DNA of 64,000 nt from NCBI GenBank assembly GCA_025558095.1, contig JAIVFI010000004.1, positions 62,001 through 126,000 on the forward strand, read 5' to 3'. The notes beneath the pieces are model-generated. The model saw nothing but the letters and a program-made list of their open reading frames with translations. It was not told where the DNA came from and did not search any database. This DNA comes from Hyaloraphidium curvatum. Lineage: Eukaryota > Monoblepharomycota > Hyaloraphidiomycetes > Hyaloraphidiales > Hyaloraphidiaceae. The translations under genes and the position numbers were made by a program. Shown here piece by piece: positions 4,122 through 24,892 of this stretch. Within the stretch, counting starts at the first letter, position 1, and each line of letters opens with the position of its first letter.

Positions 4122-6893
4122 TCACCTGACAAGCACCTCCTCCACATACTTCATGCTCGGATCGGCCTTCCACAGCGTCACCAGCGCGTCCGCGCACCCG
4201 GCCGCCGTGCGCAGATGGTTCCCGATCCGCCTGAGCAGGGCCACGTGGTGCTGGAACCTGACGACGCACTCGCGCGCGCGACAGCGGACAAACTCGGGCA
4301 CCTGAGCCGGCGGGGCGGCGGAGGATCCCGGGGCGGGGTCGGCGGGGACGAAGGAGAGGCCGGGAAAGAGCGGGTCGGCGGCCTTGGAGGAGACCGAAAC
4401 CGCATCGTCGTCCGCGTCCCCCTCGCCCCCCTTCTCCGCCGCCGCGATGCAAGCCATGGCCAGGTCGCGCAGCGCGGAATGGTTCGAGATGTCCCTCGTC
4501 GAGTAGTGCAGCGACGCCCCCGTGCGGCCGTCCCCGCGGGCAAGCGCGACCAGCTGCCGCAGCTCCTCGAGCCAGATCGAGGCGGTGTAGTACAGCCCCG
4601 TGACCAGGTTCGCCGGCGGCGCGAGGTACGGGAACCAGCCTGCCGACTGCGGCCCCGGCCCGCTCCCGCCGCCGGCCCAGCGCAGCTCCACCGCCAGCGC
4701 GAGGTCCGTGATTCGGCGGGCGCACTGCAGCGCGGATCCGTAGTCGTCCGAATCCACCCACCGCACCTCGTCCGTCACGCACCGCAGGGAATGCATCTCA
4801 GGCCCGCGGACGACGAAAAGCGCGCAGTGGTAGAGCCACAGGAGCACCGCCCACTCGACGTCGAACGTGCCCGCGGCGAAATTCTCCCTCCCCCCTTCGG
4901 CGAACCTGACGAACCGCACCGCGCCCAGCCCGTCCCTCCATTCGCGGTCGGCGGCATCGTTCCCCGGCTCCGACGGCGGCCTCGACCCGATCGTGCGCTC
5001 GTCGAGCTGCCGCACCGCGGCGGGCACGCGCTGCCAGTACTGCGTGCGAAGCTCGTCCTCCAGCGCCGCGATCCGCACCAGGAACTCCTCATGGGAAACG
5101 ATGCCGCCCTTGAACCTGCGCATGGTGGAGTATACTGCGCGCTGGATCCGCGCGAGCATCAAAAAGAGCGGGCGGCGGTCTCCCTCCGCAAACGACGTGG
5201 GTATGGCGCGGAGGGCCGGCGAGCAGGGCGCGAGCGAGACGAGCCTCGAGGGCGGGTTAATCCGCTGCGGTAGCAGGATGGCGGGGGTGTTGCTCCCCGC
5301 CATGAACCACGCGTAGTCGTTGCAGGGCAGGTCCGCCGCCACGTCCTCCTCCACGATCGCGGCGGGCGCGCCCATCCCCGACACGAAGATCGAGTCCTGG
5401 GCGAACAGCCGCCAGAATGTGCGCCGGCGCTCCTCGTTGCTGATCCACTCGTCCGCCGTCGCCGGGCCGCCGTGGCCCACCTGCACCGGGTCAGCCTGCA
5501 GCCCCAGCCTGCGCGCGAGGGCGAGCGCGACCCCGTGCAGCTGGTGCGCCTTCATGAACTCGCCCTGCTCGACCATGTGCTCCACGCACCACGACATCGC
5601 GATCACCGTCCCCACGTTGCCGTTTCCCGAGAGGACGACGTCGGGGAGGAGCAGCATCACGCGGTCGAGGAAGGCGCGGACGACCGAGCGCGGCCGGAGG
5701 GTGAGCCGCGAGGCGCGGAGGAGGAGCGCGTTCAGGAGGAAGGGGTCGATGCCCGAGGGCGGGGTGGCAGAGAGGTAGGTGAGGAAGTGCGGCAGGTGGA
5801 GGTCGAAGGACGAGGGTTCGATGGTGCGGACCGCGTCGAGGAGGATGGAAGAGAGGTCGGGGTCCGCGGGGAGGGGAGCCAGGGCGTCGAATGGGCCGAG
5901 CTGGCGCGGCACCGGGTTGAAGAAATCGGGCACCCCCGCATCGTGCCCCGCAAAGCTTCCGGCCCAGTGCGCCATGCCCTGCACCAGGGCCGGGATGGGC
6001 GGCGCAGCGGGCTGCACGACCATGTGCGGGGCCGGCAGGGGAAGGGCGACCGTCTGAAGTCCCGCTCCGGTCCAGTCCGGCATGGGGAGGCCTTCAGAGT
6101 CCACGGTCAGAATCTGGCTGCCCGACGTCGTCGAAAGTTGCGCGCTGCTTAGGTACGGGCTGCCCAGCTGGGCCGAGTAGAGGGTCGAAGACGAGCTGCC
6201 GTTGAAATGCTCCTCGAGGCCCGTCGCCATGGTCTGAAGGGACGAGCTGCGGACCGTCCTCGACGCCGCGGTGGGAGACATGGGCAGAGCAGCCATCCTC
6301 ATCCGACCCAAGGCAAAGTCCGATGGCAGGGCGATCTGGATCCCGCCCGATGCTGACCGCACCACCTCGGGCAAGGCAAGGTGGGGCGACTGCGGCCCGC
6401 CGGCGACCTGCCCGCCGTATCCGCCGGCACCCAGCACAAAGAGGGCCGAGGCTGCGTTTGCGGATTCGGCCCTCCGCATCGGCAGCATGGGCTCGTCGAG
6501 GAAGGCCGCCCCGAGTCCGTCCATATCGATGTTGCCCACTTTCGGCGTAACGGAGCCCGAACGGGAGCTTTTCGGGCCGACAGTGACCGGCAACTCCGAA
6601 AGGTTGCTCCGAATAGCCTCCAGCGTCGGCGGGTTCCTGACCAGGCGCTCCCGCACCGGCCCTGAAGGGCGGTTCCTTGGCCGCTTGGGCTTCGTCCCGT
6701 CCTCCGGTTGTTCCAGTTTGACTCTCCCCTTGGGACCCCGCTTCTGCAGCACGGTGGGATAGACGCACTGCAGGCCTTTTTCGGCACAGCGCTCGCAGGT
6801 CGGGCGGTGGCCCGAGCATCGCGAATGGAGGTCGCGGCAGTGGTCGCACCTGGGGCGTGCCGGGCCGCTAGAATCGCGCCGGAAAGTGCGCAT
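4122..6893 (-). CDS. fungal Zn(2)-Cys(6) binuclear cluster transcription factor
   Basis: This is a 923-aa protein read without introns. Residues 16-43 form a perfect C-x2-C-x6-C-x6-C-x2-C-x6-C cluster (C16, C19, C26, C33, C36, C43) followed by the basic linker KRGPKGRVK. A long low-complexity segment leads to a fungal-specific middle homology region (roughly 380-650) with the typical VIAMSWCVEHMV and EERRRTFWRLFAQDS phrases. This class is essentially fungal and acts in the nucleus. The ATG at 6893 lies close to the cluster. A 5' exon is also possible: the frame 6868-7389 carries a GTGAGG donor and a TTCTAG acceptor only 45 nt apart that would join just before the cluster. Targets are unknown; it is the only DNA-binding regulator near the fatty-acid and channel genes. 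Confidence 0.85.
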   Translation of the reverse strand: MRTFRRDSSGPARPRCDHCRDLHSRCSGHRPTCERCAEKGLQCVYPTVLQKRGPKGRVKLEQPEDGTKPKRPRNRPSGPVRERLVRNPPTLEAIRSNLSELPVTVGPKSSRSGSVTPKVGNIDMDGLGAAFLDEPMLPMRRAESANAASALFVLGAGGYGGQVAGGPQSPHLALPEVVRSASGGIQIALPSDFALGRMRMAALPMSPTAASRTVRSSSLQTMATGLEEHFNGSSSSTLYSAQLGSPYLSSAQLSTTSGSQILTVDSEGLPMPDWTGAGLQTVALPLPAPHMVVQPAAPPIPALVQGMAHWAGSFAGHDAGVPDFFNPVPRQLGPFDALAPLPADPDLSSILLDAVRTIEPSSFDLHLPHFLTYLSATPPSGIDPFLLNALLLRASRLTLRPRSVVRAFLDRVMLLLPDVVLSGNGNVGTVIAMSWCVEHMVEQGEFMKAHQLHGVALALARRLGLQADPVQVGHGGPATADEWISNEERRRTFWRLFAQDSIFVSGMGAPAAIVEEDVAADLPCNDYAWFMAGSNTPAILLPQRINPPSRLVSLAPCSPALRAIPTSFAEGDRRPLFLMLARIQRAVYSTMRRFKGGIVSHEEFLVRIAALEDELRTQYWQRVPAAVRQLDERTIGSRPPSEPGNDAADREWRDGLGAVRFVRFAEGGRENFAAGTFDVEWAVLLWLYHCALFVVRGPEMHSLRCVTDEVRWVDSDDYGSALQCARRITDLALAVELRWAGGGSGPGPQSAGWFPYLAPPANLVTGLYYTASIWLEELRQLVALARGDGRTGASLHYSTRDISNHSALRDLAMACIAAAEKGGEGDADDDAVSVSSKAADPLFPGLSFVPADPAPGSSAAPPAQVPEFVRCRARECVVRFQHHVALLRRIGNHLRTAAGCADALVTLWKADPSMKYVEEVLVR

Positions 6894-7945
6894 CGCGGCT
6901 CACCCACCTCACGGTAATGTATTTGCGCACCTTGCCGTTGGCGTGCGTCTGCACCGCGGGGTGCGGACCTTCGCTCGCCGGCGGCGCGCCGACCGCAGCC
7001 ACAAAACCCCCCGGCTGCGGCCCGGCGCCGGGGAGGACGCCCAGCGCCGCCATGCGATCGGCCTGCGCGCGCTCCGCCGCCCCGTCCGCCGGAAAAGCCT
7101 CCGCCGGCGACGCTGCCGGTTCCCGCCCCTTTGCTCGCGGCCGCCCCGCGTCGGGCACGAACGCCTCCGCCGGCCCGAGCGGCTGGAAAACCCCACCGCC
7201 GACCGCCTGCAGAGCGTGCTGCACCGCTTCGCCGGCGCCGGACGCAACGGGCGGCACGGTTGAGTTGCAGGTGTGGCCGCGCTGGAGCGGGGAACGTTCG
7301 CGGGTCCACACGGAACATCCTCCGGGCCTCGTCCGCGGATTTACCACCAAGTACACTTCGGATCGCGTGTCGCAACTGTCGCCGTCCACAGCATTCTAGT
7401 CTGTTCTGAATGCCTGATTAGGAGATTGGTTCGCCGAACCCGGGCTCGTTCATCGGCGAGAGCTCGCTTATGGTGAAGGTGGACGTGGCTTCCTCGACGC
7501 AAACAATTCAGATCGCGGTTGCTCGTCACGTCGAAAAGGAGTAATCGAGTAGCTGAGAGGAATTGCTCCACCGATTCCGTACTACTTAGTTTCACTCATC
7601 AAAGGCTTTGTTCGCGCGGAACGACATATTGTCTTCAATCGAACGACAGGGCTTTTTTCTTTACTACAGATACGCTCCTGGGAATGCAGTCCTTCCTTTA
7701 ATCCTTCCTGGCCTCGCGCTGACAATCGGCACCTGTGCCAGCACCTCGCGATCCCGCAGCGCGAACACCGGCTCAACTTCATCTCGCCCTGCTGCTAACC
7801 GCACCGATCGCAGCTGTCAACACGGGACACACATCGGCGGTATGAGATCGGACCAGCAGAAAGCGGTATGGTGGTGCCGCCGGGAAAGGAATCCGAACCA
7901 TCAACCAGCGCCACGCGTGCACGTGGCATCGTCCCATAATGAGCG
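6894..7945. other. upstream region of the Zn2Cys6 gene; possible 5' exon, otherwise nothing recognised
   Basis: Positions 6894-7389 are GC-rich and open on the minus strand, so they may hold the transcription factor leader or an untranslated first exon. Positions 7390-7945 are less GC-rich and have only short overlapping ORFs with no family resemblance. They form the 3' side of the ligand-gated channel gene. Confidence 0.4.
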
Positions 7946-9073
7946 TCACTGCTTGGGCAAAACGATGTCGCCCGGCAGCACGGCGTACCGCGCCTGCTTC
8001 CCCGCCGCCTCGTCCTTGAGCTCCTCCCAGGGCTGCGAAAACCCGTCCGCGAGGGCCGTGTTCACGATCTGCACGTGGAAAGCGATCCAGCAGACGAGCA
8101 AGCCGATCGCCGAGGCTCGGTCCACGGGGACCCTCCGCGCGGGCGCCAGCAGGTGCCCGAGCACGGTCTGGAGGACAACCAGGAGCAGGGCAAAGTACGA
8201 CACGAAAAAGTACTTGTCCAGGAGCGTGAGGGCCGGGGTTTTGGGGATCTCGCTGGCAACGACAAATTTGAAGGTCACGAGCGTCAGGAGGAGCGTGAGA
8301 ATGATCGACATGCGGCCGCCGACGTCCTCGCAGCCCATGAGGAACGCGATCGGCGACAGGCAGACGATGAGGAAGACGATGAGCACGATGTTGTAGAGGA
8401 AGTAGCGCCACTGCCGCTCCACGCGCAGCGACACCGTGATCCTCAGCTCGTCCGACTGGCCGGCCGCGACGGAGGTGCCCACGATCGGGCTGATGGCGCT
8501 CCATCCGGCGACCGAGGGCGAGCACGTGAAGCTCGCCATGCTCCTCCAGTCGTGCTTGTCCGGCACGTAGTTCGGGGCCTCAGAAACTGCTCGGAACTCC
8601 TTGGTCTTCAGGCAGATTCGGATGGTCAGAAACTGCCGGTCAAACGGGAACCGATCCAGCTCGAGCTCCTCGTACAGCACGGCCTTGAAGTGGATCATCT
8701 CGCTGACGACACTGTTGCGGACGCGGAACACGGGCGGTCCGAAGAGCGAGAACTCGACCGCGTTCTCGAACACGGCGTCAGGATCCACCGGCTGGTTCGC
8801 GCCATCGTCGTCGGGCGATTCGAACTTGGCGTCCTCCCAGAAAAAGTTCAGATATCCGGAGATTGCAAATTGCTGCGCGACGGGGTCGATGGATTCGAGG
8901 CGGCAGTTCAGCGAGAACCAGACGTCGGTCCTCTTCCCGAACGTGGCCGTTGGTGTCGGCAGCTCCTCGGACGAGGCCGCGCGCGTCAAGTCCCCCGATG
9001 CAGTGCCGTCCACGACACGAGTGCCGCGGAATCGAAGCTGGGCATCCGGTTCTGCGATGGCGATGGCGCTCAT
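7946..9073 (-). CDS. pentameric ligand-gated ion channel (Pro-loop / Cys-loop receptor family) subunit
   Basis: This is a 375-aa protein with the full pLGIC layout. It has a beta-rich N-terminal domain (about 50-220), the Pro-loop LDRFPFDRQFL at 139-149, then four hydrophobic segments: M1 224-246, M2 about 254-273, M3 287-310 and M4 320-342. Both Cys-loop cysteines are absent, as in prokaryotic and many protist members. Numbering M2 from R254 as 0', the pore lines up as S2', T6', L9' and T13', with the invariant 9' leucine gate, and the M2-M3 loop reads EIPKTP, very close to the bacterial LPKT. There is no acidic residue at -1', so cation selectivity is not supported. An unusual lysine sits at 15'. 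I see no clear signal peptide, which is odd for an extracellular N-terminus. Ligand and membrane are unknown. Confidence 0.88.
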   Translation of the reverse strand: MSAIAIAEPDAQLRFRGTRVVDGTASGDLTRAASSEELPTPTATFGKRTDVWFSLNCRLESIDPVAQQFAISGYLNFFWEDAKFESPDDDGANQPVDPDAVFENAVEFSLFGPPVFRVRNSVVSEMIHFKAVLYEELELDRFPFDRQFLTIRICLKTKEFRAVSEAPNYVPDKHDWRSMASFTCSPSVAGWSAISPIVGTSVAAGQSDELRITVSLRVERQWRYFLYNIVLIVFLIVCLSPIAFLMGCEDVGGRMSIILTLLLTLVTFKFVVASEIPKTPALTLLDKYFFVSYFALLLVVLQTVLGHLLAPARRVPVDRASAIGLLVCWIAFHVQIVNTALADGFSQPWEELKDEAAGKQARYAVLPGDIVLPKQ

Positions 9074-9249
9074 TTTGCGATGTGGTTTTGGAGGTGGCGC
9101 GCCCCGGGCGGTGCTCGGCGGCGACGAAACGCGTGAACAGGTGACTCCACAAAACGTGTATTCACTCGACGTCGGTGCTACTGGTCTGCGATCGTCCTAC
9201 AAAACAAACTCGCACATGGCGGGCGTTTTCCGGGCCGGCGACGCGCCGA

Positions 9250-11428
9250 TCAAATTTTAGCCTGCATGATCTGGTCCTGGCCGAAGAGCTCCTCCTTGAT
9301 CCTGATGTGAGGAGCCTTCTTGGAGGCGACCTGCGAATAAGAAAGAGATTAGAACGAAAAGAGCACGGAGAATAGGGCTGCAACGCACCTTCTCGATGTC
9401 GGCGATGGTGACGCCGCGGGCCTCTGCAAACGCGCACAACAAGTCAGCCACCACACCCTCGCCACGGCGCATCGAATCAACTAACCAACGGCGGGGTTGT
9501 AGCCGAAGCGCTCCTTCCAGGTCGGGGGAGCGGGGGCGGGGCCGAAGGCCTTCTTGTACAGCGTGCAAACAACAACGCCGCCGAGACCGACCTAGAAAAG
9601 GATCGTAGAATAAGTAGCAAGCGACAAACGAACGATCGACAAGCCCACGTTGTGCTGCAGGGCAAGCTTCGCTCCTTCAACCTGACGAGGGCCCGCCCAG
9701 CCGCGGAGCTGCCAAGAAAGCTCACAACACTCGTAGTGAATTCCGTGTCAGTCCTCCTCTCCCTGAAGTCCGAGCACAAGTCCCACCTGAGCCAGACCGG
9801 TGGCACCGAGCGGGTGCCCCTTGGAGATCAGCCCGCCCGAGCCGTTGATGACCTGGGTGCGCTTGGGGTTCATCCCGGGCTCGCGGACCTTGGGGTGGTG
9901 GCCGGCGCCGGACTTGACCCAGTCGCTCGCCTTGCCGGGCTCGCAGAGCTCGAGGGCGTCGATGGTGATGAGCTCGTTGCCTGAGAAGCAGTCGTGCAGC
10001 TCGATCACGTCAACGTCCGAGGCCTTGATGCCGGCCTCGGCGTAGACCTGCTTGATGGCCTTGCGGGTCATGTCGGCGCCCTGCGGTGGCGTGCAGGTGA
10101 GCTTCCTTGTCCAGCACGAGCAAAACCCAACCATTCAAAACGCACCGCAATCTCCTCCAGGCTCTTGGCGTTGCCTCCGACGGCGAACGGCTTGCCCGAG
10201 TCGGTGGCCATGGCCTGGGCCACGATCTCGACGGCCTGGGCCTCGAGGCCGTGGGCCTTGACGAAGTCCTCGGAGCACACCACGGCGGCGGCTGAGCCGC
10301 ACGAGGGGGGCGAGCAGTGCAGCAGGGTGGCGTTCTTGTAGATCGGGCGGGCCTTGCGAACGTCCTCGAGCGACGAGTGGTGGCGGAACTGTGCGTCGTC
10401 AAGAAAAAGACGGAGACGTTAGCAACGGCTACGGCACGTCCACCACCGCTGTCCACGCACCTGCGAGTAGGGGTTCAGCTGCGAGTGGTTGTGGTTCTTC
10501 GACGCGATGTAGTCCATCGCGGCGTCGTCCTGGCCGTTCTTCTCGCAGTACTCGAGGGCCGCGTTGGTGAAGATCTGCGGGTTCCTGGGCGCCGACGTGA
10601 AGGGCGCGAGCTCGTTCATGATCACTGGGGTGGGGGATCGGCGTCAGTCCCTCTTTCATGCCGTGAGGGGGATGGCGCTGCTCACCCATCTGCTGGTCCA
10701 TGGTCGGGGTGCGCTCGGGGAAGTTGCCCTTGAGGGGACCGGGGTTCATCTTCTCGAAGCCGACAGCGAGGGCGCCTGTGCGCGCAAACAATCATCTTGT
10801 TAGCAAGCAATCGCAACAAGCCGGCCGAGGCACGCACAGTCGTAGAGCCCGCCGGCGACGGCCTGCCGGGCGAGCAGCAGCGCGGTCGAGCCGGTGGCGC
10901 AGGCGTTGGTCGTGTTGATGATGGGGATCTGGGTCGTGCCAAGCTGGTACAGGGCGCGCTGGCCGTAGCACGAGTCGCCGTAGACGTAACCGGCGGTCGC
11001 TGCGGGCGGATGCGCGTCAGACAGTGGAAGCGGAACGAGACGCGGGGAAGTGCCCACCGAACTCGATGTCATCAAAGTTGATGTTGGCGTCGGTGAGGGC
11101 CTTGGTCGCGGCCTCGACGGCGTACTCGGTGTAGTCCTTCTTGGGCTTCAGGCCGGGCTTGTCGAAGGTGGTCTACCAAAGCGAAAGGATGAAGCCTGGC
11201 GGCGACCTGTGGAAAGATACCCAAGCTCACCACTGGAAGGAGAAAGCGTGGTAAGCGACATGAAACATACCCTGGCGACCGCTGAAACTCACTTCCGACC
11301 CCGACGACTGTAGATCCGGGCGAGGGTGGCGGGCGGCGACAGAGGGCATCGGTCAGCCAATTGTCCACCATTAAACGCCTCGAAACAACGCAATACGCAC
11401 CGTAAACCTTCCTGCCGTTCTTGGGCAT
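9250..11428 (-). CDS. SCP2: SCP2-type (sterol carrier protein X-like) 3-ketoacyl-CoA thiolase, peroxisomal
   Basis: I rebuilt 13 exons: 11401-11428, 11293-11307, 11231-11232, 11058-11172, 10838-10999, 10686-10775, 10461-10624, 10146-10388, 9787-10080, 9649-9708, 9486-9591, 9389-9423 and 9250-9330. They sum to 1395 nt, a 464-aa protein. It begins [18 protein letters not shown], with the acyl-accepting Cys at residue 87 in [11 protein letters not shown] and the catalytic His in [14 protein letters not shown], then LQHNVGLGG. This is the thiolase half of SCPx; the SCP2 lipid-transfer domain is absent. It would cleave 3-ketoacyl-CoA, typically branched or very long chain, in peroxisomal beta-oxidation. 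The C-terminus AKI is a known fungal PTS1 variant. The third exon, 2 nt long, is needed for frame and for the conserved GVGMT. All introns are 45-65 nt. Confidence 0.9.
11231..11232 (-). other. 2-nt microexon (TG) of the SCP2-type thiolase
   Basis: On the minus strand, CCTTCCAG is followed by TG and then GTGAGC, so two consecutive introns flank a dinucleotide. Including it makes the 13-exon coding sequence divisible by three and restores the family motif VGVGMT; leaving it out shifts everything downstream. A nested two-step splice is the alternative. Confidence 0.65.
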
Positions 11429-23599: not shown

Positions 23600-24892
23600 T
23601 CAAGCGCCTCCTACTCCGAACGAAGCCACCTTCTTCTCCAACCACTGCTCGACGGCCGGGATCCAGTTCCACCTCCTGTAATCCTTCGTCGGCTGATCGA
23701 ACGACCTCACGTGCCGCAGCAGCCTCTCCGCCATCTCCTGGCCCCCCGACTCCACCAGGGGCCCGAGCTGGTGCATGGACGTGCGGATCCCAAACACCAC
23801 CGCTCCCGTGACGGGCAGCCTGACGAACGTCTGCGCCTCGGTGCGCGCAAACACCCTCTCTCCCGCGTTGTCGGCATCGACGGGAGCGACCTTGGAGATG
23901 CCCTGCTCCTCCTCGTGCCTGAGCTCGCGGTGCATGTCCGAAAAGTCGACGAAGGTGCAGTTCCATCGCCGGCTGGGCGAGTCAACCTTGAGCGTCTTGA
24001 AGAAACGTTCCATGTGCGGCATGAGCGGCGGCGAGTTGGGCACCGACTTGTGGATCTTGCGCAGCGATCCCGGGACGGCGTTGTGGAGCAGCGGCCCCGG
24101 GAACGAGAAGCAGTTGATCGACGCGGTCACGAGGTATTCCTCGTCGTCGCCGTCGTAAAAGTCCGGCACCTTTGCCGGGGCGGCAAACCCGAGCTCGCGG
24201 AGGCGCCCGCGCCGCTCGAGGATGGCAAAATCCTCGACGGCGCACTGCCCGAGGATCTCCAGGCAATGCTCGGATCCCTCGGCCTGTGGATCCCAGGTCC
24301 ATTCCCGCGGCTCGAGGGGAACTCCCGGCGAGGGGACGAACTTGAGCAGGCCCGCCGCCTCGTTGCGGAAGAGCCCGGGATAGCGCACAGACAGGAAGCC
24401 GGTGACGGCGTTCAGCAGCTCCCTAACCGCTTCGTCGCGTCCTGGGACCCAAGCGACGCACCGCTGCCGCTTCTCCGGGTCCGCGAGGAGCCTCAGCCGT
24501 TCCGACATCTGGAACGGGTACGTCGAGTCCACCACGAGCCACTCGGCGGGCTCCAGGCGCGAAAGCGACATTCGGGGGCGGTACACGTCGTTGCCGGCCT
24601 TGACGTAGATGACGGGCGGGCTCGGCGTGGTCAGCGGAGAGGCGACGGCGCTCGGCGGGATCGCGAACGGCCGGTCCGGGTCCGCTTCCTCCACCGGGGT
24701 CCAGCGAATCGGCGCCGGGGGCACATCCTGTTTCGCAGCAGCGCCGTTGCCGTTCGCTTTATCCCTCGCTTTGTCCTCGTCGCCGTCCTTTAGCGTAAAC
24801 GCGGACGAGTTGACGAACGCCCACATTCCCGCCAGCGCGGTGCCGACCACCGCGACGCCGGCGAGGACCTGCACCGGCAACGGTCGAGACAT
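23600..24892 (-). CDS. DUF3445 / heme-dependent oxidative N-demethylase (HODM)-like protein with N-terminal anchor
   Basis: This is a single-exon 430-aa protein. The phrases YRPRMSLSRLEPAEWLVVDS, VTGFLSVRYPGLF and, near the C-terminus, FARTEAQTFVRLPVTGAVVF followed by IRT match my memory of the DUF3445 family, whose studied members are heme-dependent oxidative N-demethylases of secondary amines. Residues 5-25 form a hydrophobic segment (LPVQVLAGVAVVGTALAGMW), so this version is probably membrane-anchored, which bacterial enzymes are not. There are fungal DUF3445 proteins with such anchors. The heme ligand cannot be assigned by eye. It stands alone between the MFS and tetraspanin genes. The alternative is a catalytically divergent relative. 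Confidence 0.65.
   Translation of the reverse strand: MSRPLPVQVLAGVAVVGTALAGMWAFVNSSAFTLKDGDEDKARDKANGNGAAAKQDVPPAPIRWTPVEEADPDRPFAIPPSAVASPLTTPSPPVIYVKAGNDVYRPRMSLSRLEPAEWLVVDSTYPFQMSERLRLLADPEKRQRCVAWVPGRDEAVRELLNAVTGFLSVRYPGLFRNEAAGLLKFVPSPGVPLEPREWTWDPQAEGSEHCLEILGQCAVEDFAILERRGRLRELGFAAPAKVPDFYDGDDEEYLVTASINCFSFPGPLLHNAVPGSLRKIHKSVPNSPPLMPHMERFFKTLKVDSPSRRWNCTFVDFSDMHRELRHEEEQGISKVAPVDADNAGERVFARTEAQTFVRLPVTGAVVFGIRTSMHQLGPLVESGGQEMAERLLRHVRSFDQPTKDYRRWNWIPAVEQWLEKKVASFGVGGA

Follow-up and report, generated by a model that had tools for sequence, protein, structure and literature searches.

Animals use pentameric ligand-gated ion channels (pLGICs) as their fast neurotransmitter receptors. 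GLIC, the proton-gated channel of Gloeobacter, has, like other Cys-less Pro-loop receptors, a beta-sandwich, a P-x-D Pro-loop and an arginine before the first transmembrane (TM) helix, M1; it also has four TM helices, a short M3-M4 loop and a PKTP M2-M3 loop. In one survey (Jaiteh et al. 2016, PMC4795631), most protist pLGICs carry a Cys-less loop, eukaryotic pLGICs are monophyletic and none is detected in Fungi; Cys-less pLGICs of diatoms are discussed in PMC11085791. Among titles and abstract openings on pLGICs, fungi, chytrids and Hyaloraphidium, with few subscription journals covered, we found no report of a fungal pLGIC. Here we describe a gene of Hyaloraphidium curvatum (Fungi, Monoblepharomycota) in a 64,000-nucleotide stretch (the window; it covers bases 62001-126000 of a contig of 957 kb, and the genome has 31.9 Mb in 55 contigs). 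Its open reading frame (ORF) very probably encodes a Cys-less (Pro-loop) pLGIC subunit of a distinct clade, here clade C, and it shares all of the GLIC features listed above. An earlier reading of the sequence alone, the original prediction, had called it a pLGIC subunit in a kingdom regarded as missing the family; the survey agrees on the kingdom, and the evidence below upholds the subunit.

Family membership and relatives of the subunit

The ORF (7946..9073, minus strand, as are all parts of the gene given below) is a complete, intron-free coding sequence of 375 aa with an ATG start. Its length is by itself indecisive because the DNA is GC-rich: 2000 mononucleotide shuffles of 7001-10200 gave longest ATG ORFs of 145 aa at the median, 281 aa at the 99th percentile and 523 aa at most. 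The family is identified by a match to PF02932 (Neur_chan_memb; 30.2 bits, cut-off 28.1, E 7e-7), by a phmmer search of the PDB in which the nearest relative is bacterial GLIC (E 7e-15), and by a protein search with 12 matches, the query itself among them and nine relatives at 31-52% identity. All three protein searches scored the 8000 candidates with the most words in common. Of the two profiles that the original prediction had named as a check, only the membrane one matched; the ligand-domain model PF02931 (Neur_chan_LBD) scored 12.1 bits, under its cut-off of 26, which counts against the assignment. Hence, the ligand domain is assigned from phmmer and the predicted structure. That structure, modelled as a monomer, shows the pLGIC fold with an N-terminal immunoglobulin-like beta-sandwich and four TM helices (222-238 with 242-245, 251-273, 284-308 and 311-341), and hydropathy agrees.

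We found the parts of a pLGIC in order along the protein. A disordered N-terminal tail (residues 1-45, 8939..9073; predicted local distance difference test, pLDDT, ~30) precedes the ligand-binding beta-sandwich (residues 46-220, 8414..8938). The sandwich holds an acidic loop, DDDGANQP (residues 88-95, 8789..8812), recognised by comparison with relatives, and the Pro-loop FPFD (residues 142-145, 8639..8650), which has the Pro-x-Asp pattern of the superfamily; both positions of the flanking Cys-loop disulfide pair are occupied instead by Glu and Leu (read by eye). R220 comes just before M1 (about residues 222-244, 8342..8410) and is invariant in a 15-row alignment (A3), in which P277 of the M2-M3 loop IPKTP (residues 276-280, 8234..8248) occurs in at least 90% of rows. 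The M2 pore helix spans residues 251-273 (8255..8323); M3 (residues 284-308, 8150..8224) and M4 (residues 311-341, 8051..8143) are placed from the predicted structure, and a C-terminal tail (7949..8050) follows. The features listed by the original prediction, namely FPFD without its cysteines, four TM segments, S2', T6', L9', T13', K15' and the IPKTP loop, were all recovered, along with R0'.

The closest homologues (P0002-P0006 and P0008) are 47-52% identical and come from jgi, ena and lgn records and one EukProt entry, P0005; a second EukProt entry, P0010, which its source labels a complete ORF, is 31% identical. A second protein search, with alignment A1, brought no further proteins; this alignment included the Asn-rich tail of P0005 and an apparently unspliced tail of P0006, on which words may have been wasted. 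The protein searches returned no homologue in other named fungi, at a sensitivity limited by the scoring of only the 8000 most word-sharing candidates. In a tree of 33 rows (LG+C20+F+G4, 314 columns), the nine rows of clade C group with support of 97/97, and two further groups of H. curvatum pLGICs, A (8 rows) and B (5 rows), with 99/98 and 100/99; the comparison set is small (five cyanobacterial loci and GLIC, two metazoan rows and three unplaced sequences, P0011, P0021 and P0022). With three long branches removed, clade C reaches 100/100 and group A 100/99.

Clade C has sequence marks of its own. K15' (K269, 8267-8269) is present in 9/9 clade rows and 0/24 others. The C-terminal W..MKDE of P0002-P0005 and P0007 is WEELKDE in the window protein (8009-8029) and is missing from P0008, P0010, P0012 and the odd tail of P0006. 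The acidic loop reads D(D/N)GEN in P0002, P0003, P0006, P0007 and P0009 and DDGAN in the window protein; it is missing in P0004, P0005, P0008 (whose sequence does not extend to that part), P0010 and P0012.

Topology of the ligand domain

We propose, at nearly an even chance of being right, that clade C is a lineage of inside-out pLGICs, with the fold inserted upside-down and the ligand domain cytosolic. Lacking a signal peptide, the protein would be inserted with M1 as its signal, and its ligand domain would be left in the cytosol. This orientation is suggested by the missing signal peptide, together with the patterns that the clade shows in cysteines, sequons and charge. The survey cited above, in its main text, has no occurrence of 'signal peptide' or 'inverted'.

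Signal peptides were gauged by Kyte-Doolittle hydropathy, averaged over 11 residues, as the peak value among the first 40. The window protein peaks at 0.79, in accord with the earlier remark that no signal peptide is visible, and the six other clade proteins whose sequence includes an N-terminus (P0002, P0006, P0007, P0009, P0010 and P0012) peak at -0.03 to 1.49, compared with 2.22-2.70 in group A (seven proteins, P0016 included) and 2.51-2.91 in group B (five genes, starts chosen in the analysis). The gap to the upstream thiolase gene on the same strand is 176 nt (9074..9249, minus strand), and its sole ATG (9215-9217) opens a six-codon frame, MCEFVL-stop, with an in-frame TAG at 9197-9199. 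Hence, no ATG-started signal-peptide exon fits the gap. The N-terminal tail contains LRFR (9026-9037), which is LRHR in P0002 and LRNR in P0009, with SRMR elsewhere in P0012 and no counterpart in P0006, P0007 and P0010. Signals of the Arg-x-Arg type are recognised by COPI, a cytosolic coat.

Cysteine makes up 2.35% of the ligand domain in clade C compared with 0.08% in groups A and B (p 2e-5), and M1-M3 show no difference (1.27% and 1.34%, p 0.62). The clade cysteines are spread over 19 alignment columns; the best kept, C154, is present in 7/9 rows and the next best in 4/9, so that C154 has no equally kept partner. Sequons are absent from 6/9 clade rows, from 4/11 other rows and from none of the 13 A and B rows, each of which has at least one. 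The charge of the far side minus that of the ligand side is negative in 7/8 scorable clade rows and positive in 15/15 scorable others. For this test, nine of the 24 non-clade rows (A_P0016, A_P0020, A_C6div+, B_C15, B_C16, B_C12, x_P0022, GLIC and GlyRa1) and C_P0006 were set aside, since the piece used lacked a loop; eight of the nine score positive, and GlyRa1, whose piece ends before the M3-M4 loop, scores -2. The loop windows are unequal (5 to 27 residues after M4), and the post-M4 window of group A lies partly on a fifth helix.

Several observations weigh against a cytosolic ligand domain. The window protein's own charge score is +1, the single exception in the clade, and the topology tests are not independent, since the clade consists largely of close relatives (seven of nine rows). 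Sequons are also absent from GLIC, its relative L025, P0011 and the glycine receptor (GlyR), and the ligand domain holds five cysteines in GlyR and two in the octopus nicotinic acetylcholine receptor, where they form disulfides and neither domain is cytosolic. Within the clade, two sequons occur in each of P0005 and P0006, and P0012 carries a single Cys and a single sequon. In P0007, an extra hydrophobic segment (48-75) precedes the ligand domain; the basic residues flanking it lie on the ligand-domain (C-terminal) side, however, which a cytosolic ligand domain would predict. For clade members on short contigs, the protein is a gene call, and its start may be misplaced.

An ordinary pLGIC with its ligand domain outside, whose N-terminal domain is carried across by M1 or by an unannotated exon farther upstream, with no cleavable signal peptide near the ATG, is a serious alternative that we put somewhat short of even. 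Such a channel would agree with the normal predicted fold, with the +1 score, which has the sign of all 15 scorable non-clade rows, and with R0' and the M3-M4 loop ARRVPVDR, both of which suit an inside position. It would have to reckon with the 176-nt gap, which fits no ATG-started signal-peptide exon, and with the three clade-wide patterns, and export of a folded domain of ~175 residues without a signal peptide is generally unusual. If the inside-out reading is true, a fold generally taken as outward-facing was flipped in evolution, and a neurotransmitter-receptor machine would read an intracellular signal in a kingdom reported without the family.

Pore and proposed mechanism

The pore line of the window protein reads R0', S2', T6', L9', T13' and K15', with Gly at -1', and the coupling residues D145 of the Pro-loop, R220 before M1 and P277 of the M2-M3 loop are kept. 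Five subunits would surround an M2-lined pore; a ligand bound in the beta-sandwich would shift the Pro-loop against R220 and the M2-M3 loop, which would open the gate at L9'. The original prediction was right that the glutamate is missing at -1', although the loss is not clade-wide: Asp or Glu occupies this position in 6/9 clade rows and Gly in 3/9, the window gene included. Hence, the pore of clade C likely passes cations, and we are unsure of the ion selectivity of the window gene's own channel. Position 15' points away from the pore, into the M2/M3 pocket where anaesthetics and lipids bind.

If inside-out, the clade C channel would read a cytosolic ligand, in the plasma membrane or in an internal membrane, a location that the original prediction had also considered. 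Judged from its residues, the acidic loop is a possible Ca2+ or ligand loop, and Ca2+ binding there is our leading, if weak, guess. The earlier suggestion of a zoospore channel is doubtful, since H. curvatum is a non-flagellated fungus.

It is unlikely that the protein is a degenerate, non-conducting relic or an accessory subunit. Loss of the acid at -1' would fit such decay, as would FENA in loop A, where group A has WTPD; however, the frame is intact and D145, R220 and P277 are kept. Close relatives share a FENA-like loop, so FENA is not decay of this copy.

Genome repertoire, origin and known systems

The H. curvatum genome holds at least 16 pLGIC loci, which are spread over eleven contigs and fall into three groups. 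Hence, the window gene is not a lone oddity. It is the only group C locus, and a search with it otherwise gave loci of groups A and B. Group A has nine loci (four on contig C6, two each on C37 and C1, one on C39) and is already annotated automatically: of 11 proteins found in a search with one paralogue, six (P0013, P0014, P0015, P0017, P0019 and P0020) carry the species name Hyaloraphidium curvatum at NCBI, as neurotransmitter-gated ion-channel ligand-binding domain-containing proteins. Complete group A models start with a signal-peptide-like stretch; their -1' residue is Glu (Asp in the divergent gene on C6), and M4 is followed by a fifth hydrophobic segment and a tail of 129-188 residues (five proteins) or 337 residues (P0018). 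An AlphaFold model of P0015 (11 rows, two of them truncated gene models) has five consecutive helices (276-299, 305-327, 338-365, 370-397 and 405-442) at a mean pLDDT of 60.6, a moderate confidence. Hence, the predicted fifth TM helix would turn the group A C-terminus into the cytosol. Three group A pairs are arranged head to head, on C1 (280871/281366, 495 nt between matches), C6 (862723/863186, 463 nt) and C37 (166945/167840, 895 nt), as if they were heteromer subunits with common control regions; C6 also carries one tandem pair.

Group B has six loci, one each on C27, C13, C16, C15, C12 and C31 (L022, L023, L052-L055). The C27 gene reaches only 16.8 bits with PF02931 and finds pLGIC structures by phmmer (E 4e-11), the C15 gene has no Pfam match at E 0.01, and the C13 match runs through two stops, taken as introns. 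Group B joins four pLGICs from the phylum of an Aphanocapsa metagenome-assembled genome (cyanobacteria) at 100/99, and at 100/100 without the three long branches; by its position in the tree it is a bacterial-type group within a eukaryote. The cyanobacterial sample gave PF02932 matches in 24/194 genomes, two above the cut-off. Sixteen of the 24 matches were taken to belong to another family: they begin at position 60 of the profile or beyond, and their frames have ~510 aa (L028 and L030 inspected); from the remaining eight, L025, L029, L032, L040 and L047 were used, and L026, L027 and L035 were dropped, as no single frame had the Pro-loop pattern.

The approximately unbiased (AU) test rejected A, B and C as one clade (p 0.0005, or 0.0001 once the long branches are removed), and also B with C (p 0.006) and A with B (p 0.001). 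A with C was not rejected (p 0.25) and appears as an unsupported pair (37/36) in a smaller tree; rejection of group A with seven clade C rows, minus P0010 and P0012 (p 0.0003), shows only that these two remain in clade C. A single group of A, B, C and GlyR was also rejected (p 8e-5). Hence, group B would be an exception to the monophyly of eukaryotic pLGICs. With its three groups and at least 16 loci, H. curvatum alters the known distribution of the family, and it offers a nerve-free system for asking what pLGICs do.

Recent horizontal transfer of the window gene from a bacterium is improbable. The nearest PDB relative is indeed bacterial, group B of the same genome groups with cyanobacteria, and pLGICs are patchy, lateral transfer being invoked in the 2016 survey. 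Against this, two EukProt entries are among the nearest homologues, and the GC content at third codon positions (GC3) of the gene, 0.878, fits that of five window neighbours (0.787-0.885). Patterns from close relatives (alignment A4) found no relative among 96 genome-contig and 43 viral-contig matches, in scans that distant relatives may escape because each used only two short peptide patterns. The 'acquired gene' of the original prediction thus finds no support in the sense of a recent transfer from prokaryotes; the gene may still have been transferred long ago, or between eukaryotes.

The nearest recognised genes are a Zn2Cys6/Fungal_trans transcription factor of 923 aa (4122..6893, minus strand), 1 kb away, which marks the contig as fungal, and on the other side the thiolase gene, whose 3' part lies at 9250..10134 (minus strand; stop 9250-9252, domain match in 9748-10134, introns inferred by eye). 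The window also holds an ORF with a HODM_asu-like (haem-dependent oxidative N-demethylase) domain (23600-24892, minus strand). A mis-assembly, or contaminating DNA of a protist or an animal, which the reported lack of pLGICs in fungi would favour and which the original prediction had raised against itself, is very unlikely given a 957-kb contig with fungal genes, 96 Zn_clus matches across the genome at E 0.001, host-like GC3 and at least 15 more pLGIC loci on ten other contigs, six of them matching the NCBI-named proteins.

Compared with known systems, the window protein is, like the protist pLGICs of Jaiteh et al. (2016), both Cys-less and eukaryotic. It differs from its genome mates: group A has a signal-peptide-like start, Glu or Asp at -1', a predicted fifth TM helix and a long C-terminal tail, and group B has a signal-peptide-like start and groups with cyanobacterial sequences. 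Unlike the metazoan Cys-loop receptors (GluCl, GABA-A and GlyR), it lacks the Cys-loop pair, the WxPD loop A and a signal-peptide-like start, and its M3-M4 loop is short. It is ~22% identical to GLIC, from which it is set apart by the absence of a signal-peptide-like start and by K15', a 45-residue disordered N-terminal tail, a W..(M/L)KDE C-terminal tail and a Cys-rich ligand domain.
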